Shown one piece after another: positions 26,997 to 50,707 of a DNA stretch of 64,000 nucleotides. Under the pieces are notes generated by a model, which saw only the letters and a program-made list of their open reading frames with translations, made no database searches and was not told the DNA's origin. How positions within the stretch are numbered: the first letter of the stretch is position 1; every line of letters starts with the position of its first letter. Origin of the DNA: Propionimicrobium lymphophilum DSM 4903 (GTDB taxonomy: Bacteria; Actinomycetota; Actinomycetes; Propionibacteriales; Propionibacteriaceae). The position numbers and the translations under genes are program-made. The stretch lies in contig NZ_AUIB01000007.1 in assembly GCF_000423485.1 (NCBI RefSeq), positions 1-64,000 of the forward strand, given 5' to 3'.

Positions 26997-28346
26997 ATGG
27001 CACGACTATTTGGAACTGACGGCGTCCGTGGCGTCGCAAACATAGATTTAACAGCAGATCTGGCCCTGAAACTTTCGGTGGCAGCTGCGCACGTGCTCGG
27101 CGAGGCTGGGGCGTTTAGCGATAAGCGTCCTCGCGCGATCGTCGGGCGCGACACCCGAATCTCCGGGTCTTTCCTGAAAGCCGCCGTATGTGCTGGTCTG
27201 GCTAGCGCGGGTGTGGACGTCGTCGACGTAGACGTAGTGCCGACCCCCGGTCTTGCGCACCTGGTGGCTAGCGAAAAATTCGACCTGGGCGTCATGCTTT
27301 CCGCAAGCCACAACCCGATGCCCGACAACGGCATCAAGTTCTTCCAGCGTGGCGGCGTTAAGCTTGATGACGCGATCGAGGACGAGATCGAGCGCCAGCT
27401 CGACGCCAAGTGGCAGCTGCCAACCGGCGCCAAGGTTGGCGACATCACCTTCGACGACACACTGCTCGGCAAGTACATCGAGTACCTCGCAGAAAGCCTG
27501 AATGGTGAGTCCCTAAAGGGTCTGAGGGTCGTCTTGGACGGGGCTAACGGCTCCTCCTCCTACACTGCCGTTCCGGCTTTCGAGAAGGCCGGCGCCGAGG
27601 TCATCGGCATCAACGTGGAGCCCAATGGCCTGAACATCAACGACAACGCCGGATCCACCCACATCGATGGCCTTCGCAAGGCCGTCATCGAAAATGGTGC
27701 AGACGCCGGTTTCGCCATGGACGGCGATGCCGACCGCTGCTTGGCAGTCGACGCTGAGGGAAACGTAGTCGACGGCGACCAGATCATGGCGATTCTCGCT
27801 CTAGCGCTCAAATCGCAGGGCAAACTGCACGGCGACACTTTGGTTGCGACGATCATGAGCAACCTCGGCCTGAAGCTTGCCATGAAGGCCAACGGCATCA
27901 GCATCGACCAGACGAAGGTGGGCGACCGTTACGTGCTGGAATCCATGCAGGCAAACGGCTTCACCCTCGGTGGCGAACAGTCCGGCCACGTCATTATCAG
28001 CGAATACGCCAACACCGGTGACGGCGTCTTGACCGCTCTGCATGTTGCAGCTGCCATGGTCCGCCAGGGCAAACCGCTTGCCGAGCTCGCCAGCGTAATG
28101 AAGCAGCTGCCGCAAGTGCTTATCAACGTCCCTAACGTCGACAAGCTGCGCGCCTCCTTGGATCCTGAGATCACCCAGGCCGTGACCTCCGCAAATCAGG
28201 AACTCGGCGGGACCGGCCGCGTCGTCCTGCGGCCGAGCGGAACCGAGCCTCTGGTCCGCGTCATGGTTGAGGCCCCGACCCAAGAAAAGGCCGACGAGGT
28301 GGCACACCGCCTTGCCGAACTGGTCGCCGAACGCCTCGCGCTGTAA
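26997..28346 (+). CDS. glmM: Phosphoglucosamine mutase
   Basis: It interconverts glucosamine-6-phosphate and glucosamine-1-phosphate on the way to UDP-GlcNAc. The 449-residue protein starts RLFGTDGVRGVAN. It has the phosphoserine loop VMLSASHNPMPDNGIKFF (S104), the metal-binding loop FAMDGDADRCLAVD, the sugar-binding GGEQSGHVI and the C-terminal phosphate site RPSGTEPLVRVMVE. It is followed by a strong terminator. glmS lies 1.5 kb further on, so two steps of the same pathway are close together though in separate units. Confidence 0.96.
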   Translation: MARLFGTDGVRGVANIDLTADLALKLSVAAAHVLGEAGAFSDKRPRAIVGRDTRISGSFLKAAVCAGLASAGVDVVDVDVVPTPGLAHLVASEKFDLGVMLSASHNPMPDNGIKFFQRGGVKLDDAIEDEIERQLDAKWQLPTGAKVGDITFDDTLLGKYIEYLAESLNGESLKGLRVVLDGANGSSSYTAVPAFEKAGAEVIGINVEPNGLNINDNAGSTHIDGLRKAVIENGADAGFAMDGDADRCLAVDAEGNVVDGDQIMAILALALKSQGKLHGDTLVATIMSNLGLKLAMKANGISIDQTKVGDRYVLESMQANGFTLGGEQSGHVIISEYANTGDGVLTALHVAAAMVRQGKPLAELASVMKQLPQVLINVPNVDKLRASLDPEITQAVTSANQELGGTGRVVLRPSGTEPLVRVMVEAPTQEKADEVAHRLAELVAERLAL

Positions 28347-28390: not shown

Positions 28391-28787
28391 TTCTGTCCTA
28401 CTTGTTTTTTCCTTCTGCTGGATTTGGGCCTCCTCGTCTGGTGTCGCATATCGTGGTTGATCTTGTAGCTTCTGGGCGGTTGCTGGTCTGGGTTGCTTTG
28501 TAGAGCGAGTAGCCGTGTCTTCGTTCATCTCTTATCGCTTGCGCGATGAACGAGCTATCACTCTCGCCACGCCTCGATGCTCGTCAAACCAACCCAGCCC
28601 AGCACCCTCACTTTTAAAAGTGGTCACCGCGTCGCCAGTGAAAATTAACGTGGAAGAAATTGTTCGTAGTCGGACTTTTTGGTTCCCGCTAATTTGAGAA
28701 TTTTTAGTGGGTGCAGAAAAGTTCGTAGTCGAATCTTTTGGTTCCCGTTGATTTTGCGGATACAGCGTATAGCCGCTGGGTAGGTGC
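28391..28787. other. Gene-poor stretch between convergent glmM and coaA
   Basis: Nearly 400 bases hold no recognisable gene. The minus-strand frame starting at 28528 (MNEDTATRSTKQPRPATAQK...) runs through the glmM terminator into glmM and matches nothing I know; its Shine-Dalgarno is poor. An inverted repeat, TCGTTCATC (28521-28529) and GATGAACGA (28545-28553), and a two-copy direct repeat (28662-28756) are the only structured parts. It may be debris of a lost gene or mobile element. Confidence 0.5.
28662..28756. repeat. Degenerate direct repeat, two copies about 59 bases apart
   Basis: Copy 1 (28662-28696) and copy 2 (28721-28756) both begin GTTCGTAGTCG and both contain TTTTGGTTCCCG, followed by similar AT-rich ends. 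The sequences before each copy (GTGGAAGAAATT and GTGCAGAAAA) are also alike, so the unit is nearly 60 bases. Two degenerate copies with no conserved spacer do not make a CRISPR. It could be a dispersed intergenic repeat or a remnant. Confidence 0.6.
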
Positions 28788-29747
28788 CTAGATCTTGCGG
28801 ATTCGCACGTGGCGGATCGAGTGGTCGGAGGACTTGCGTAGCACGACGGTTGCGCGTTCGCGGGTCGGGTCGATATTGGCTCGAAGGTTCGGGCCGTTAG
28901 TGGTCTCCCAGATCGAAAGCGAGGTTTCTCGGGCTTCGGAGTCGTCCAGAGTGGCGTACTTGTGGAAATAGCTGCTCGGGTCCGCGAAGGCGCTGGAGCG
29001 CAGTGCTAGAAAGCGGGATAGGTACCAGCGGCGAATGTCGGCCTCGTCGGCGTCCACGTAGACGGAGAAGTCTAGGAAGTCGCTGACGGTGAGCCGCTGA
29101 CCATTGCGTTGAATGGTGGCGGGCTGCAGAACGTTCAGGCCCTCGACGATTAGCACGTCTGGCTGTTCGATGACGATTTTGTCGTCCTTGACGATGTTGT
29201 AGATGAGGTGCGAATACTTCGGCGCGACCACCCTCGGATTGCCCGATTTAACCGCGATGACGAATTCGAGCATTGCGCGCTGGTCGTAGCTTTCGGGGAA
29301 GCCCTTGCGATCAAGGATTCCGCGGCGCTCTAGCTCATCGTTGGGGAAGAGAAAACCATCGGTCGTCACCAGATCCACCTTCGGCGCGGAAGGTTGCCTG
29401 CGCAGCAGCTCGGCGAGGAGCCGAGCAGTGGTGGATTTGCCGACGGCGACGGAACCGGCTACGCCGATCACGAACGGGGTGCGGGTGGGCTTGATGCCCA
29501 AGAATTCGTTGGAATTCGAGTACATCCGCGCGGTGTTTTTGCGATAAAGCTCGACAAGTTGAGTCAGCGGCAGGTAGACCTCTTCGACGTCCTGCAGGCT
29601 GGTTGGGTCTTGCAGGCCCCTGAGTTTTTCAAGGGTCGCGCTATCGAGCGTCGTGTGCGAGGCTTGGGCCAGTTGCGCCCAACTCTGCCTTGGAAGGATT
29701 AGCCAGGGCCTGTTAGGCGACTGGCGGACTGCGATACTCATTTGCAT
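28788..29747 (-). CDS. coaA: Type I pantothenate kinase
   Basis: It phosphorylates pantothenate, the first committed step of CoA synthesis. From ATG 29747 it has 319 residues, with the P-loop GVAGSVAVGKSTTARLLAEL, the substrate-binding strand VDLVTTDGFLFPNDELERRG and FPESYDQRAMLEFV. A lid follows around IEGLNVLQ-like VEGLNVLQPATIQR. Other starts (TTG 29750, ATG 29741) are close; none has a clear ribosome-binding site. It is divergent from glmS. Type I rather than type III (CoaX) follows from the P-loop kinase fold. Confidence 0.95.
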   Translation of the reverse strand: MQMSIAVRQSPNRPWLILPRQSWAQLAQASHTTLDSATLEKLRGLQDPTSLQDVEEVYLPLTQLVELYRKNTARMYSNSNEFLGIKPTRTPFVIGVAGSVAVGKSTTARLLAELLRRQPSAPKVDLVTTDGFLFPNDELERRGILDRKGFPESYDQRAMLEFVIAVKSGNPRVVAPKYSHLIYNIVKDDKIVIEQPDVLIVEGLNVLQPATIQRNGQRLTVSDFLDFSVYVDADEADIRRWYLSRFLALRSSAFADPSSYFHKYATLDDSEARETSLSIWETTNGPNLRANIDPTRERATVVLRKSSDHSIRHVRIRKI

Positions 29748-29895
29748 CAAGCTTAGGGTCCCGGCGGATAAGCTCCCAAAATATTACAGTTGAAAAGCTC
29801 CTATGTCATAACGGGAAGTTATTTTTTTAGTTTTCTTGACCCTAAAATCCGTGGTTGGCTTGTTGTGACGTGCAGCTTTGCGAGAAGATAACTCT

Positions 29896-45220: not shown

Positions 45221-48200
45221 ATGTATCTAAAGAGCCTCACGCTAAAAGGTTTTAAGTCCTTCGCTTCGGCGACGACCCTAAACTTCGAGCCCGGAATCAC
45301 CGCGATTGTCGGGCCTAACGGATCGGGTAAATCGAACGTTGTTGACGCGCTCGCCTGGGTGATGGGCGAGCAGGGTGCGAAGTCTCTGCGTGGCGGCAAA
45401 ATGGAGGACGTCATATTCGCGGGCACCTCGGGTAGGGCGGCGCTCGGGCGTGCGGAGGTGTCGCTGACCATCGACAACTCCGACGGGTTGTTGCCCATCG
45501 ATTACACCGAGGTGACGATCAGCAGGACGCTGTTTCGGGCTGGTGGCTCCGAGTACGCGATCAACGGCACCACTTGTCGGCTGCTGGATGTTCAGGAGCT
45601 GCTGAGCGATACGGGCATGGGCCGGGAGATGCACGTCATCGTCGGGCAGGGGCAGCTAGATCAGATTTTGCGTGCTACCCCGGAGGTTAGACGAGGCTTC
45701 ATCGAAGAGGCAGCGGGAGTCCTGAAGCATAGGCGCCGCAAGGAAAAAGCAAGCAGGAAGCTAGCCTCCACCCAACAAAATCTAGAGCGGCTCAACGATC
45801 TGATTCGCGAGATTCGTCGTCAACTGAAGCCGTTGGGCAGACAGGCTCAGGTGGCGCGCAGGGCCGCTGTTATCCAAGCCGAGTTGCGTGATTCCAGAGC
45901 CAGGCTGCTTGCCGACGACTACACCCAAGCCAAGTTGGCGCTCGACTCTGAGCTTGCCGGAGAGCAGGCAGCCGCGGACGCCAAGCGCGCAGCCACTCAG
46001 CGGGTCGAGCAGGCCCAAAGCGATGAGCTGGCGGCTGAGCAGGCGGTCAGCGAGTTGGCGCCGGTGCTTAACCAGGCCCAAGAAGTCTGGTATTCCATTA
46101 GCGCCCTTCGCGAACGAGTCTCCACGACTATCTCGATCGCCGCGGAAAGAATGCGCTACAGTGCTGCTCAACCGAACGTCTCCACGGGCCGGGACCCGGA
46201 TGAGCTCGAGGCAGAAGCGGCCCAGGCTAGGGAAAAGGAGGCCGCGCTGGCGGCCGAGGCCGAGCAAGCCAAGGCCAAACTCGAGGAGGCAACGGAAAAA
46301 CGCAAGGGCGCCGAGGCAGATTACGAAGCTGCCGAAAAGAGCTACAGCAATGCGTTGCGAGCCGTGGCGGACCGGCGAGAGGGGCTGGCTAAATTAAACG
46401 GCAAGGTTTCATCTCTCAAGTCGAGGATGCAGGCCGGGCTGGAAGAGGTCGAGCGTCTGAAGAAACGTCATGCGGAAGCGCTCGAGCGGTCTAAGCAGGC
46501 GGACGTTAAATTCGCCGAGCTCGAAACCCAGATCACGGGTGCCAGCGATGGCGAGGTCGACCTGGACGCGGTATTCGAGCGAACTGACGAGGCGCTCGCC
46601 AAGGCTGAGGAGCACCGTCAGGAGATTTTGGAGCATTCGCGACAAGCCTCCAGCGAATTGGCTGCGGTTGCTGCCCGTCTAGAGGCGTTGAAGCTGGGCC
46701 TTCAGCGTCGCGATGGTTCAGCGGCACTCCTCGAGTCTGATCTTTCCGGCACATTGGGATCGCTGGCGCAGCTGGTTAAGGTGGAGCCGAAGTGGCAGAC
46801 CGCGGTCTCCGCTGCGTTGGGTGCGGCCACTGAAGCGGTCGCCGTGTCTGCAGCCAAGGACGCTGACGAGGCCCTCGCGCTGCTGAAGGAAAAAGATCTC
46901 GGCCGAGCATCGATGCTGGTGGCCGATGCCCCGGAACCTGAGATTCCGATGCCCCAGCTGCCCGACTACGCGGTTTACGCCATCGACGTGGTCCAGGCGG
47001 ACGACGGCGTTAAGAATGGCCTTCGCTCGGTGCTGGGGTCTACGGTCCTAGTCGAGGACCTCGCCGCCGCCAGAAAGTTAACCGCAGATTTTCCGCAGGT
47101 CACCGCCGTCACGGCTGGCGGTGACGTCGTCAGCGCCTGGTTAACTTCCGGTGGCTCGGACTCTAAACCCTCCCTGATCGAGGTGCAATCCGCGGTCGAT
47201 GAGGCAGAAACCGCGAAGGTGAAGGTCGAGGCGCAGGTGCAGCGACTGAAGTTCGAGATGGCCAAGGCAGATAGCGCGCTTGTCGAGGCACAGAAGAAAA
47301 ACGATGCTGCGCTTGAGCGACTGAACGAATCCGATGCCAGGATGACCGCCCTTGCCGAGCAGATCAATTCGCACGCCCAGGAATCCGCCGCTGCGCTTTC
47401 CGAGGCGGAGCGGCTCAAGCAGGCGATTGACAACGCAGAACAGTCCGGTTCTAAAGACCGGGTTGAGTTGGAGGAACTCGAGGCAAGGTTAGCCGCGGCG
47501 AGTGGCGAGGCAGACGTCGAGGAACCGGATCCCGCCGAGCGCGATCAGCTTTCGGTGGTTTCAAGGATGGCCCGGCAGAGTGAAATGGACGCCAGGCTCG
47601 CGCTGCGAACTGTAGAAGAGCGGGTCAGGTCGCTTTCCGGGCGCGCGGACTCGTTGGCTAGGGCAGCTGCAACCGAGCGGCTTGCCAGGGCTAAGGCAGA
47701 GGCAGAGGCAGAGCAGCTTCGCAGGGAGGCGATGATCGCTGCAGCCGTCCACGAGGGCGCGCTTTGGTTGGCAGATCGCGTAGACGAGGCCAAGGAGGCC
47801 GCGGGCGCCCGGCGAGCCGAGTTGGAAGAGGCAAGGACGAAGGCGGACGCAGACCTGTTCGCAGCCCGCGAGGTCAGCAGGCAGGCGCAGCGAGAGCTAG
47901 ACAAGCTGGTCGAGGGCGCCCACAAGGACGAAATGGCCAGGGTGGAGATGAAGATGCGCGTCGAGCGCGTCGCGGAGCAGGCAATGACCGAGCTAGGGCT
48001 GGAGCCGGATGCGCTGATCGAGGAGTACGGCCCTGAACTGATGGTTCCGGTGCTGGTACACAAGGACGGCACCGCGGTCAGCCCGGACGACGAGGAGAAG
48101 CCAGAGCCGATTCCTTACGTCCGCGAACAGCAGGCACGTCGAGCGAAAAAGGCGCAGAAGGATCTGGAGCTGCTCGGGCGGGTCAACCCCCTCGCGCTTG

Positions 48201-48772
48201 AAGAATTCGACGCGATGAGCGAACGCCACACATTCCTGGCCAACCAGGCCGAGGATCTCAAAAAGACCCGCAAGGATCTTCTGGACCTAATCGACGACGT
48301 CGATAATCGCGTTCAGGAGGCCTTTGTCAGCGCCTACGAGGACATTGCAAAGACGTTCACCGACGTGTTTGCCAGGCTGTTTCCCGGCGGCAAAGGCAAG
48401 CTCATCCTCACCGATCCCGAAGACATGCTCAATACGGGTGTCGACGTGGAGGCCAAGCCGGCAGGCAAGAAGGTCAAGCGGCTGTCGCTGCTTTCCGGTG
48501 GCGAGCGCTCGCTGGTCGCGGTCGCCTTCTTGGTCAGCCTGTTCATTGCGCGCCCGAGCCCGTTCTACATCCTCGACGAGGTCGAGGCTGCCCTGGACGA
48601 CGTGAACCTCGGCCGGCTCTTGGATATCTATCAGCAGCTTCGTGACTCGTCCCAGTTGTTGGTCATCACCCACCAGAAGCGCACGATGGAGATCGCCGAC
48701 GCGCTATACGGCGTCACTATGCGCCAGGACGGCATCTCCACGGTTATCTCTCAGCGGTTGATTGATGGGTGA
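45221..48772 (+). CDS. smc: Chromosome segregation protein SMC
   Basis: It is the condensin ATPase that organises and separates chromosomes with ScpA/ScpB. The 1183 residues comprise an N-terminal Walker A head (MYLKSLTLKGFKSFASAT, GPNGSGKSNVVDALAWVMGE), a coiled coil to about 505, a hinge (about 510-660; LAQLVKVEPKWQTAVSAALG), a second coiled coil, and a C-terminal head (signature LSLLSGGERSLVAVAFL, Walker B FYILDEVEAALDD). Length and layout are standard. Four bases separate it from gtrA. Confidence 0.96.
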   Translation: MYLKSLTLKGFKSFASATTLNFEPGITAIVGPNGSGKSNVVDALAWVMGEQGAKSLRGGKMEDVIFAGTSGRAALGRAEVSLTIDNSDGLLPIDYTEVTISRTLFRAGGSEYAINGTTCRLLDVQELLSDTGMGREMHVIVGQGQLDQILRATPEVRRGFIEEAAGVLKHRRRKEKASRKLASTQQNLERLNDLIREIRRQLKPLGRQAQVARRAAVIQAELRDSRARLLADDYTQAKLALDSELAGEQAAADAKRAATQRVEQAQSDELAAEQAVSELAPVLNQAQEVWYSISALRERVSTTISIAAERMRYSAAQPNVSTGRDPDELEAEAAQAREKEAALAAEAEQAKAKLEEATEKRKGAEADYEAAEKSYSNALRAVADRREGLAKLNGKVSSLKSRMQAGLEEVERLKKRHAEALERSKQADVKFAELETQITGASDGEVDLDAVFERTDEALAKAEEHRQEILEHSRQASSELAAVAARLEALKLGLQRRDGSAALLESDLSGTLGSLAQLVKVEPKWQTAVSAALGAATEAVAVSAAKDADEALALLKEKDLGRASMLVADAPEPEIPMPQLPDYAVYAIDVVQADDGVKNGLRSVLGSTVLVEDLAAARKLTADFPQVTAVTAGGDVVSAWLTSGGSDSKPSLIEVQSAVDEAETAKVKVEAQVQRLKFEMAKADSALVEAQKKNDAALERLNESDARMTALAEQINSHAQESAAALSEAERLKQAIDNAEQSGSKDRVELEELEARLAAASGEADVEEPDPAERDQLSVVSRMARQSEMDARLALRTVEERVRSLSGRADSLARAAATERLARAKAEAEAEQLRREAMIAAAVHEGALWLADRVDEAKEAAGARRAELEEARTKADADLFAAREVSRQAQRELDKLVEGAHKDEMARVEMKMRVERVAEQAMTELGLEPDALIEEYGPELMVPVLVHKDGTAVSPDDEEKPEPIPYVREQQARRAKKAQKDLELLGRVNPLALEEFDAMSERHTFLANQAEDLKKTRKDLLDLIDDVDNRVQEAFVSAYEDIAKTFTDVFARLFPGGKGKLILTDPEDMLNTGVDVEAKPAGKKVKRLSLLSGGERSLVAVAFLVSLFIARPSPFYILDEVEAALDDVNLGRLLDIYQQLRDSSQLLVITHQKRTMEIADALYGVTMRQDGISTVISQRLIDG

Positions 48773-48782
48773 TTTTCAAAAG

Positions 48783-48904
48783 TTCTGCCAAACTCAACTG
48801 AATAACCGTTCGCTGCGACTGCAATTTCGTGTTCACCCTTGTCAGGCGGTTTTCATTAATCTGAGTCTCAGTAATCGGGGTTTACAGAGTTGAGTTTGGC
48901 AGAA
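48783..48904. mobile_element. MITE-like element with 17-bp terminal inverted repeats
   Basis: TTCTGCCAAACTCAACT (48783-48799) and AGTTGAGTTTGGCAGAA (48888-48904) are perfect inverted copies bounding 122 bases with no coding capacity. Pairing can extend outward through AAGTT/AACTT with a small bulge. It sits 10 bases after the smc stop, and its right arm contains the apparent TTG start of the next gene. Either a miniature non-autonomous element or a long-range RNA hairpin that would bury that start codon would explain it. No clear target duplication was seen. Confidence 0.55.
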
Positions 48905-49444
48905 AAACTTGAAGTAGACTCGCCTGTTGTGGCGCTAAAAGTTGAGATTCGACGCAGCGCGCGACGCAAAAAGACCGTTTCTGGTCGTGTCGATGGCGAC
49001 ACGATAATCGTCAACGTGCCTGCCAGTCTTTCCGCTGCCCGCGAGCGAAAGCTAGTTGACGACATGGTGCGCAAGCTGCGCGACAAAGTGCGTAAGGGTG
49101 CCGCCCCCAAAACTGATCGCGAGCTTTTTGAGCGCGCCCAGCGAATCGCCACAGAGTATCTGGACCCGCAGGTCGGGCGGCCTGTGCGCCCGTCCAGCGT
49201 GCGCTGGGTTAGCAACCAGAATCAGCGCTGGGGCTCGTGCACGATTGACGATGCCACGATCAGGCTCAGCGACAGGATGCAGGAGATGCCGCAGTGGGTG
49301 GTGGACTACGTATTGTTGCACGAGCTAGTTCACCTTGTTGAGGCGAATCATTCGCCCAGATTCAAGAAGCTGCTTAGCGCGTATCCGAAGGAGGAGCGAG
49401 CGCAGGGCTTTCTGGAGGGCTGGACTGCAGCCATGCGCTGGTAG
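48890..49444 (+). CDS. YgjP-like (DUF45) zinc metallopeptidase
   Basis: This 184-residue protein has the YgjP/WSS1-like metallopeptidase motif: LLHELVHLVEANHSPRFKKL gives HExxH-type HELVH with a third His seven residues on. The substrate-site block RWGSCTIDDATIRLSD precedes it. The N-terminal part (VEIRRSARRKKTVSGRV) is also typical. The longest frame starts at TTG 48890, inside the right inverted repeat of the MITE-like element; GTG 48929, just before the conserved region, is an alternative start. Cytoplasmic; the substrate is unknown. Confidence 0.83.
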   Translation: MSLAEKLEVDSPVVALKVEIRRSARRKKTVSGRVDGDTIIVNVPASLSAARERKLVDDMVRKLRDKVRKGAAPKTDRELFERAQRIATEYLDPQVGRPVRPSSVRWVSNQNQRWGSCTIDDATIRLSDRMQEMPQWVVDYVLLHELVHLVEANHSPRFKKLLSAYPKEERAQGFLEGWTAAMRW

Positions 49445-49519
49445 GGGCTGAGCACAATGTGTTGTCCCTCGGCCTGTGCTATTTCCAGCTATTAAAAGCT
49501 TCCGGGTAGGCTTGGGTGC

Positions 49520-50707
49520 GTGGGAAATCTTGTTTTTTGGATTCTAATTGCAATTATGCTGGCCGCGGCCGCCGTCGCCGGTCTGAGCGTCTACCTGACT
49601 CGCGGCCGTCGCAAACCGATTGCTCGCGGCGAAGAGCCGAAGCAGGTTACAGCCGGAGGTGACGAGGAACCGCTGGTCACTGCCCCGAGCGTGGAGAACG
49701 AGCCGGTTGCCGAGCCCGCAGAAACCACCGAGGTAGTTGAAGAACCCGCTGCAGAGGTAGTGGAGCCGCAGGTAGAAGAGGTGGAGCAGCCTCGTTCTCG
49801 CATGGCTCGCCTGCGCAGGCGGTTGGCCTCGTCCAACAACGCGCTGGCCAAGGCGCTTGCCGATCTGCTCTCCAGCGACAACATTGACGACGATACCTGG
49901 GACGATTTCGAGACCACCTTGATCACTTCGGACCTCGGAGTTGGCCCCTCCACTGAGCTGGTTGAGACGCTCCGTAAGAGGCTGTCCATCGACGGCATCG
50001 ACGATCCCGCCCAAGCCAAGGAGGCGCTGCGCGAGGAGCTGGTTAAACTAGTCGATCCGAGCCTGGACCGCTCGTTGAACCTCGACCACGAGGAGGGCAA
50101 ACCCGCCGTCGTGATGATGGTCGGTGTCAACGGCACAGGTAAGACCACCACCGTCGGCAAGCTGGGTCGCGTGCTGGTCGCCGAGGACAAGAAGGTGCTT
50201 TTCGGCGCCGCCGACACCTTCCGCGCGGCAGCCGCCGAGCAGCTCACCACTTGGGGCGATCGCGTCGGCGTCCAGACCATTCGCGGTGAGGAGGGCACCG
50301 ATCCTGCCTCGATCGCATTCAATGCCGTTGACGCCGGCATCGAACAGGGTGTCGACGTCGTGTTGGTAGACACCGCTGGCCGTCTGCACACCAAGACCGG
50401 CCTGATGGACGAGCTCGGCAAGGTGAAGCGAGTCGTAGAGAAGAAGGCGCCAGTCAGCGAGGTGCTTCTGGTTCTCGACGCCACCACCGGCCAGAATGGC
50501 CTGACCCAGGCACGAATTTTCGCAGAGGTCGTAGACGTTACTGGCATCGTACTCACTAAGCTGGACGGTTCCGCCAAGGGCGGCATCGTCGTGCAGGTTC
50601 AACGTGAACTAGGTGTTCCGGTCAAGTTCATTGGGCTTGGCGAAGGCGCCGACGACCTGGCTCCGTTCGAGGCAGACGGCTTCGTTGCGGGACTACTGGG
50701 CGAGTAA
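49520..50707 (+). CDS. ftsY: Signal recognition particle receptor FtsY
   Basis: It docks ribosome-SRP complexes at the membrane. The 395 residues comprise an N-terminal membrane segment ([20 protein letters not shown]), an acidic, low-complexity A domain (about 38-95), and N and G domains ([76 protein letters not shown]). The transmembrane anchor plus acidic region is usual for actinobacteria. The start is GTG 49520 behind a weak ribosome-binding site. It is followed closely by ffh, its partner GTPase. Confidence 0.95.

Follow-up and report, generated by a model that had tools for sequence, protein, structure and literature searches.

A 122-bp palindromic element between smc and a ygjP-like gene of Propionimicrobium lymphophilum belongs to a dispersed family that may mark small gene insertions

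Within the window, the 64,000-nucleotide stretch of Propionimicrobium lymphophilum DNA analysed here, a short palindromic segment separates a gene that we take, from its sequence, to be smc from a ygjP-like metallopeptidase gene; the gene that follows is, by the same kind of assignment, presumably ftsY. The features of the locus are these:

45221..48772, plus strand: smc, the upstream neighbour, with its stop codon at 48770-48772
48773..49519, no strand: block between smc and ftsY, made up of element, ygjP and spacers; 58 bp in G012, the closest of the relatives compared
48783..48904, minus strand: inverted-repeat element of 122 bp, the core motif being read on the minus strand
48783..48799, plus strand: left arm, TTCTGCCAAACTCAACT, from an inverted-repeat search, with copies elsewhere in the genome at 0-3 mismatches
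48836..48844, minus strand: central core, TGACAAGGG as read on this strand and CCCTTGTCA on the plus strand; its first base is position 61 of 122 counted along the minus strand
48888..48904, minus strand: right arm, the perfect complement of the left arm, from the same search
48890..49444, plus strand: longest frame of the ygjP-like metallopeptidase (PF01863), with alternative starts at TTG 48896 and GTG 48929
49520..50707, plus strand: ftsY, which begins 58 bp past smc in G012

The preliminary description of this DNA had placed a non-coding 122-bp segment with perfect 17-bp inverted repeats between smc and the ygjP-like gene, and all of this holds: positions 48600-49200 contain one inverted repeat, with 17-nt arms that are 100% complementary and 88 nt apart, and the longest stop-free run within the segment is 36 amino acids. 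By a simple count, ~0.0004 perfect 17-bp repeats within 120 bp are expected by chance per 64 kb. A motif-blind scan ranked the segment as the better of two palindromes in the window, against none in a 3-mer-shuffled control. The same scan of three 400-kb samples returned 3, 18 and 5 palindromes against 3, 11 and 3 in the controls, and at its lower threshold palindromes are thus mostly due to chance.

The segment is one of about 16 copies, which comprise ten with arms of its own type (type A), five with a second arm type (type B) and one degenerate copy. A genome search with the 17-mer arm at three or fewer mismatches found 26 sites in 2.04 Mb, against 2 for the reversed control. Sixteen of these pair up as eight elements of 122-123 bp, two are the single ends of two 112-bp elements whose other arm is degraded, and the remaining eight are taken as chance; blastn with the segment returned one more copy, a partial one. 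A covariance model built from the ten type A copies (R1) recovered all ten of them plus five places of weaker match, at E 0.003 to 2.6, that carry the type B arms, CCGTGACAAA...TTTGTCACGG and variants. The E-values of these five are weak alone, and they gain their support from matching ends combined with a core at the dyad. A pattern of ends plus core recovers three of the five (control 0); it occurs at 12 places (control 0), nine of them in elements, one of which is counted twice, and the other three, all on contig C2, do not look like elements. Exact CCGTGACAAA is present at six sites, four of them inside elements, and with one mismatch allowed it shows no excess (91 sites, control 102). Because the type B copies went into a second model, R2, the high scores they receive from it are circular. 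The degenerate copy, with its core near C1:181587 and arms judged by eye, scored 19.5 when 400 kb of contig C1 were scanned with a matrix of the core. More copies may exist, because that last matrix covered 400 kb of C1 and, out of 514 candidates from a first look, R1 scored 150.

At scores of at least 13, the core matrix gave two hits against none after shuffling in the window, 5 against 3 in C1, 3 against 1 in the relative G011 and 6 against 1 in G012; when motif and palindrome were scanned for together, every control was surpassed by just two copies, that of the window and one in G011, and control motifs performed at least as well as the motif in C1 and G012. The copies are intergenic, and convergent frames enclose at least three of the nine loci drawn, C7b, C13 and C4a. 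Contigs C1 and C2 make up 51% of the genome and hold 2 of the 16 copies (binomial P ~0.002, computed post hoc).

Conservation is confined to the ends, the centre and the spacing. Compared pairwise, the ten type A copies have a left-arm identity of 0.894, a right-arm identity of 0.761 and a central identity of 0.730; their two interiors agree at only 0.286 and 0.334, the best pair reaching 0.57. Near the dyad lies the core, TGACWAGGG, from which several copies depart at one or two bases. Its start falls at position 60-61 in the copies of 122-123 bp, eight in all, and at position 51 in both copies of 112 bp; from there to the far end the distance is 62-63 bp in all ten, the spacing being nearly fixed apart from one 10-bp step. 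The two short copies suggest that arms and core would be kept in helical phase, a matter on which the type B lengths, 120-125 bp, do not bear. Judging from these sequences, the family is old, with its ends, core and spacing kept and its interiors drifted, and is not a fresh burst of MITEs. Such conserved ends next to near-random interiors imply selection on the ends, exerted either through repeated rounds of recognition by a mobilising enzyme or through a host function in place. In each copy of 112 bp, a reading frame reaches with its 3' end into the degraded arm (L045 1406-1421, frame 708-1421; L053 1607-1612, frame ending at 1607), so that its stop codon may stem from the element. Elsewhere in the window, a second inverted repeat of 124 bp (28481-28604; score 14; arm of 20 bp, TGCTGGTCTGGGTTGCTTTG, imperfectly matched) lies between reading frames 26997-28346 (plus strand) and 28788-29750 (minus strand) and has no TGACWAGGG core, and positions 28640-28758 match a different repeat, located around C1:49591, that recurs many times in the 400-kb sample of C1.

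What do the copies adjoin? At the smc-ftsY border the genome carries the element, on one side of ygjP only, together with ygjP itself. None of the best 29 ygjP loci of relatives has smc, ftsY or ffh within its 1.5-kb flanks, and ygjP is absent from the flanks of all 29 relative smc loci. The preliminary description had envisioned an insertion ahead of a resident housekeeping gene, and this part falls: since ygjP stands apart from smc and ftsY in the relatives, element and gene seem to have arrived here together or successively. From the smc stop to the likely ftsY start, six relative loci span 58 bp (G012) and 196-650 bp (the other five), some of the larger gaps containing other frames, and a tight border is therefore seen in G012 only.

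A comparable arrangement is found between rplA and rplJ, where the order is 45 bp (including the rplA stop and a terminator ending in TTTT), element C9a, a DUF559/REase-like gene, element C9b, 205 bp and rplJ. Eight relative loci show both rplA and rplJ; seven have spacers of 275-406 bp, in none of which an inverted repeat scores above 9, and the eighth (G040, L255) has a spacer of ~1.3 kb. No DUF559 match was obtained at any of 29 relative loci, those beyond the eight being uninformative for want of an rplA match. The two flanks summed come close to the spacer length of the nearest relatives, and outside the rplJ leader these spacers align poorly. An insertion bounded exactly by the two elements is thus likely from the sequence comparison, and not proven to the base. 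On contig C4, an LppP/LprE-like lipoprotein gene also lies between two elements, at a locus that has no comparison genome. A further copy, between genes that we presume to encode a pilin and a sortase, is in place both here and in G012, where the element is 93% identical, the adjacent spacers 94-96%, the pilin tail 92% and the sortase gene 84%. The whole of this intergenic region (L083 1432-1660 and L128) is 93-96% identical between the two genera.

The 122-bp sequence has no match among 56 relatives, and a strict paired-end pattern hit only its own genome among 198, none other of which belongs to the same genus. With R2 and E-values up to 0.1, eight of 197 family genomes match, namely this one and seven others in six genera, with ten foreign matches, eight of which have arms unlike type A or B. 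Three copies in G011 have perfect arms of 26, 23 and 20 bp; the others have arms of 17 bp (G069), 16/17 (G009), 18/21 (G120), 11 bp (G154) and a weak 5 bp (G079). In G012, the counterpart of our pilin-sortase copy is L128, where pairing covers 12 of the 14 outer bases; L135 pairs at 10 of 11 and has a poor core. Leaving the weak G079 match aside, clear palindromes with cores such as TGACAAGGG, TGACTAGGG and TGACCAGGG occur in five other genera, all selected for palindromy and core, because R2 rewards both. Over 396 genomes of the phylum, with nine candidates scored per genome, R2 found nothing palindromic outside this genome: it returned this genome and two matches (E 0.07 and 0.09) in which no inverted repeat scored 8 or more. 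Although weak copies may be missed at nine candidates per genome and the search was less sensitive, this empty result speaks against a general artefact. Two cross-genus alignments, A4 and A5, were rejected for misplaced arms.

Five of the ten type A copies are flanked by direct matches of 4-6 nt, each lying in an A/T-rich run, and the other five have none, which does not amount to a regular target-site duplication. The AT fraction over 8 bp on each side is 0.72 for type A, 0.55 for type B and 0.41 for the window. In the 26 contigs of the genome, no long-spaced pair of ends with three or fewer mismatches stands out as a parent insertion sequence, and near-identical copies are absent. The element has no match in plasmid and phage collections. 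A 19-base end pattern (arms followed by CGC only) occurs in six stretches of genome_contigs and three of viral_contigs, none with a partner end of three or fewer mismatches at an element-like distance; the 3-mismatch partners at L063 (53 bp on) and L067 (3.1 kb on) were read as chance.

Could the segment instead be a native long-range hairpin that switches ygjP alone? The longest ygjP frame does open inside the right arm, at TTG 48890, as the preliminary description had noted, and the arms would pair if transcribed: the predicted fold has -47.2 kcal/mol, against -27.7 +/- 3.4 for shuffles. Six strands of five copies likewise have predicted RNA folds with z of -3.0 to -9.5. It is possible that the right arm supplies the ygjP start codon. 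Alignments with ygjP homologues mostly begin at residues 12-18 of the 184-residue frame, and an RRSARR anchor, shared with 8 of 29 homologues, lies 7 residues after GTG 48929 and 18 and 20 after TTG 48896 and TTG 48890, respectively; in those eight, possible starts lie from 1 to more than 50 residues before it. Neither a promoter-like nor a terminator-like site was found around the window copy. A switch peculiar to ygjP is nevertheless next to inconceivable, given that ~15 further copies sit at unrelated loci and that ygjP lies elsewhere in the relatives examined; nor, with those copies and no match in the 56 relatives or beyond its own genome among the 198, can the segment be the unique and conserved regulatory hairpin that had been proposed. 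A transcript, if made, would carry a long hairpin between smc and ygjP, and this could influence the ygjP start or mRNA processing, any such effect being a by-product of the element, not its origin.

A stronger alternative, which we regard as possible though on balance doubtful, holds that selection keeps the copies in place as DNA or RNA sites, with arms and core bound by a protein or with the transcript hairpin serving in the termination or processing of mRNA at operon borders. The preserved arms, core and spacing around near-random interiors, the strong predicted folds and the convergent frames at some loci all suit such a role. So do the copy shared with another genus at the pilin-sortase locus and the lack of young copies, of regular target duplications and of a parent element. 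However, the shared copy is no better conserved than its spacers and hardly differs from the pilin tail, so that the element is not singled out; the arms differ in other genera, the window copy is without terminator-like or promoter-like sites, Rfam recognises nothing in it, and at two loci relatives have neither element nor gene. The last point favours a mobile origin, since the elements adjoin genes that the relatives lack. Mobility might also take the form of a cassette-type recombination site, with a recombinase inserting single genes beside or between palindromic sites as in integrons. Like attC, the elements are palindromic and adjoin single inserted genes, in the order element-gene-element at C9 and C4 and element-ygjP at smc-ftsY, and the type A arms hold ACTCAAC/GTTGAGT, which fits the R-box patterns RYYYAAC/GTTRRRY of attC sites. 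Yet type B arms, inspected by eye, lack R boxes, the apex is conserved here and variable in attC, and the copies are scattered rather than arrayed; an attC-like system therefore appears quite unlikely.

On this evidence, we consider it about an even chance that 48783-48904 is one copy of an old, low-copy, non-autonomous, MITE-like palindromic family of ~112-125 bp; its origin probably lies in a small mobile element of ancient date and not in a switch devised for the adjacent gene. The MITE-like character proposed in the preliminary description thus stands in part: the element is multicopy and intergenic, with inverted-repeat ends, AT-rich flanks (72% in type A) and a smc-ftsY spacer of only 58 bp in G012, but the copies are old (interior identity ~30%), and no consistent target duplication or parent transposon was found. 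We envision that a protein or complex would recognise the two arms as well as the core, under a constraint of DNA phasing, and that it would have moved the element, sometimes with neighbouring DNA or with DNA between two copies. At smc-ftsY, the element might have arrived with ygjP or shortly before or after it; by now it is probably immobile. On this reading, the element marks small gene insertions, and may once have moved them. A bolder version strikes us as improbable, namely an undescribed gene-insertion system of Propionibacteriaceae, in which ~120-bp palindromic sites with a TGACWAGGG dyad core, clade-specific arms and fixed helical phase, often paired, would border single genes (REase-like DUF559, lipoprotein, ygjP) placed between core-gene operons.

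What moves and what maintains small bacterial palindromic repeats is largely an open question. This family offers three separable constraints, arms, core and phase, with lineage-specific arms on a common core, and these constraints, along with genes missing from relatives beside or between copies, make mobility and protein binding directly testable. Mobility, if true, would explain single-gene gain at the core-gene borders smc-ftsY and rplA-rplJ.

How does the family relate to known repeats? Our limited searching of the literature met nothing that we recognised as describing such elements in this bacterial group. Rfam gave no match for 48600-49100 at E-values up to 1 and, for 11 loci at gathering score, one tRNA only, outside the element. 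REPs, in the account of them given in one source, are likewise repeated extragenic palindromes, of 20-40 bp however, whereas the present elements have 112-125 bp and a long interior (PMC3733652). The enterobacterial ERIC or IRU is an imperfect palindrome of 127 bp and, in the sections of the sources that describe it, resembles the element in size, palindromy, intergenic position and the presence of TGACTGGGG near its middle, but differs in its ends (PMC2229807, PMC10969869). Kinship with ERIC was rejected, R2 having no match on two E. coli ERICs and the core score being attained in 510 and 491 of 5000 shuffled sequences as well as in 11 of 156 windows of our own genome. From bacterial MITEs, the family differs in that no parent insertion sequence and no regular target duplication were found, and in its near-random interiors (0.29-0.33, best pair 0.57, hence no likeness over the whole length) around a conserved asymmetric core at the dyad. 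With MITEs it shares terminal inverted repeats, short length, non-coding character and several dispersed, intergenic copies in one genome. At smc-ftsY and rplA-rplJ, relatives belonging to other genera have neither element nor gene. Short, non-coding, dispersed and intergenic elements with terminal inverted repeats are also what the relevant portions of two sources describe as MITEs, and the pairs that enclose other DNA resemble the MITE-flanked units treated there (PMC10969869, PMC3934969).
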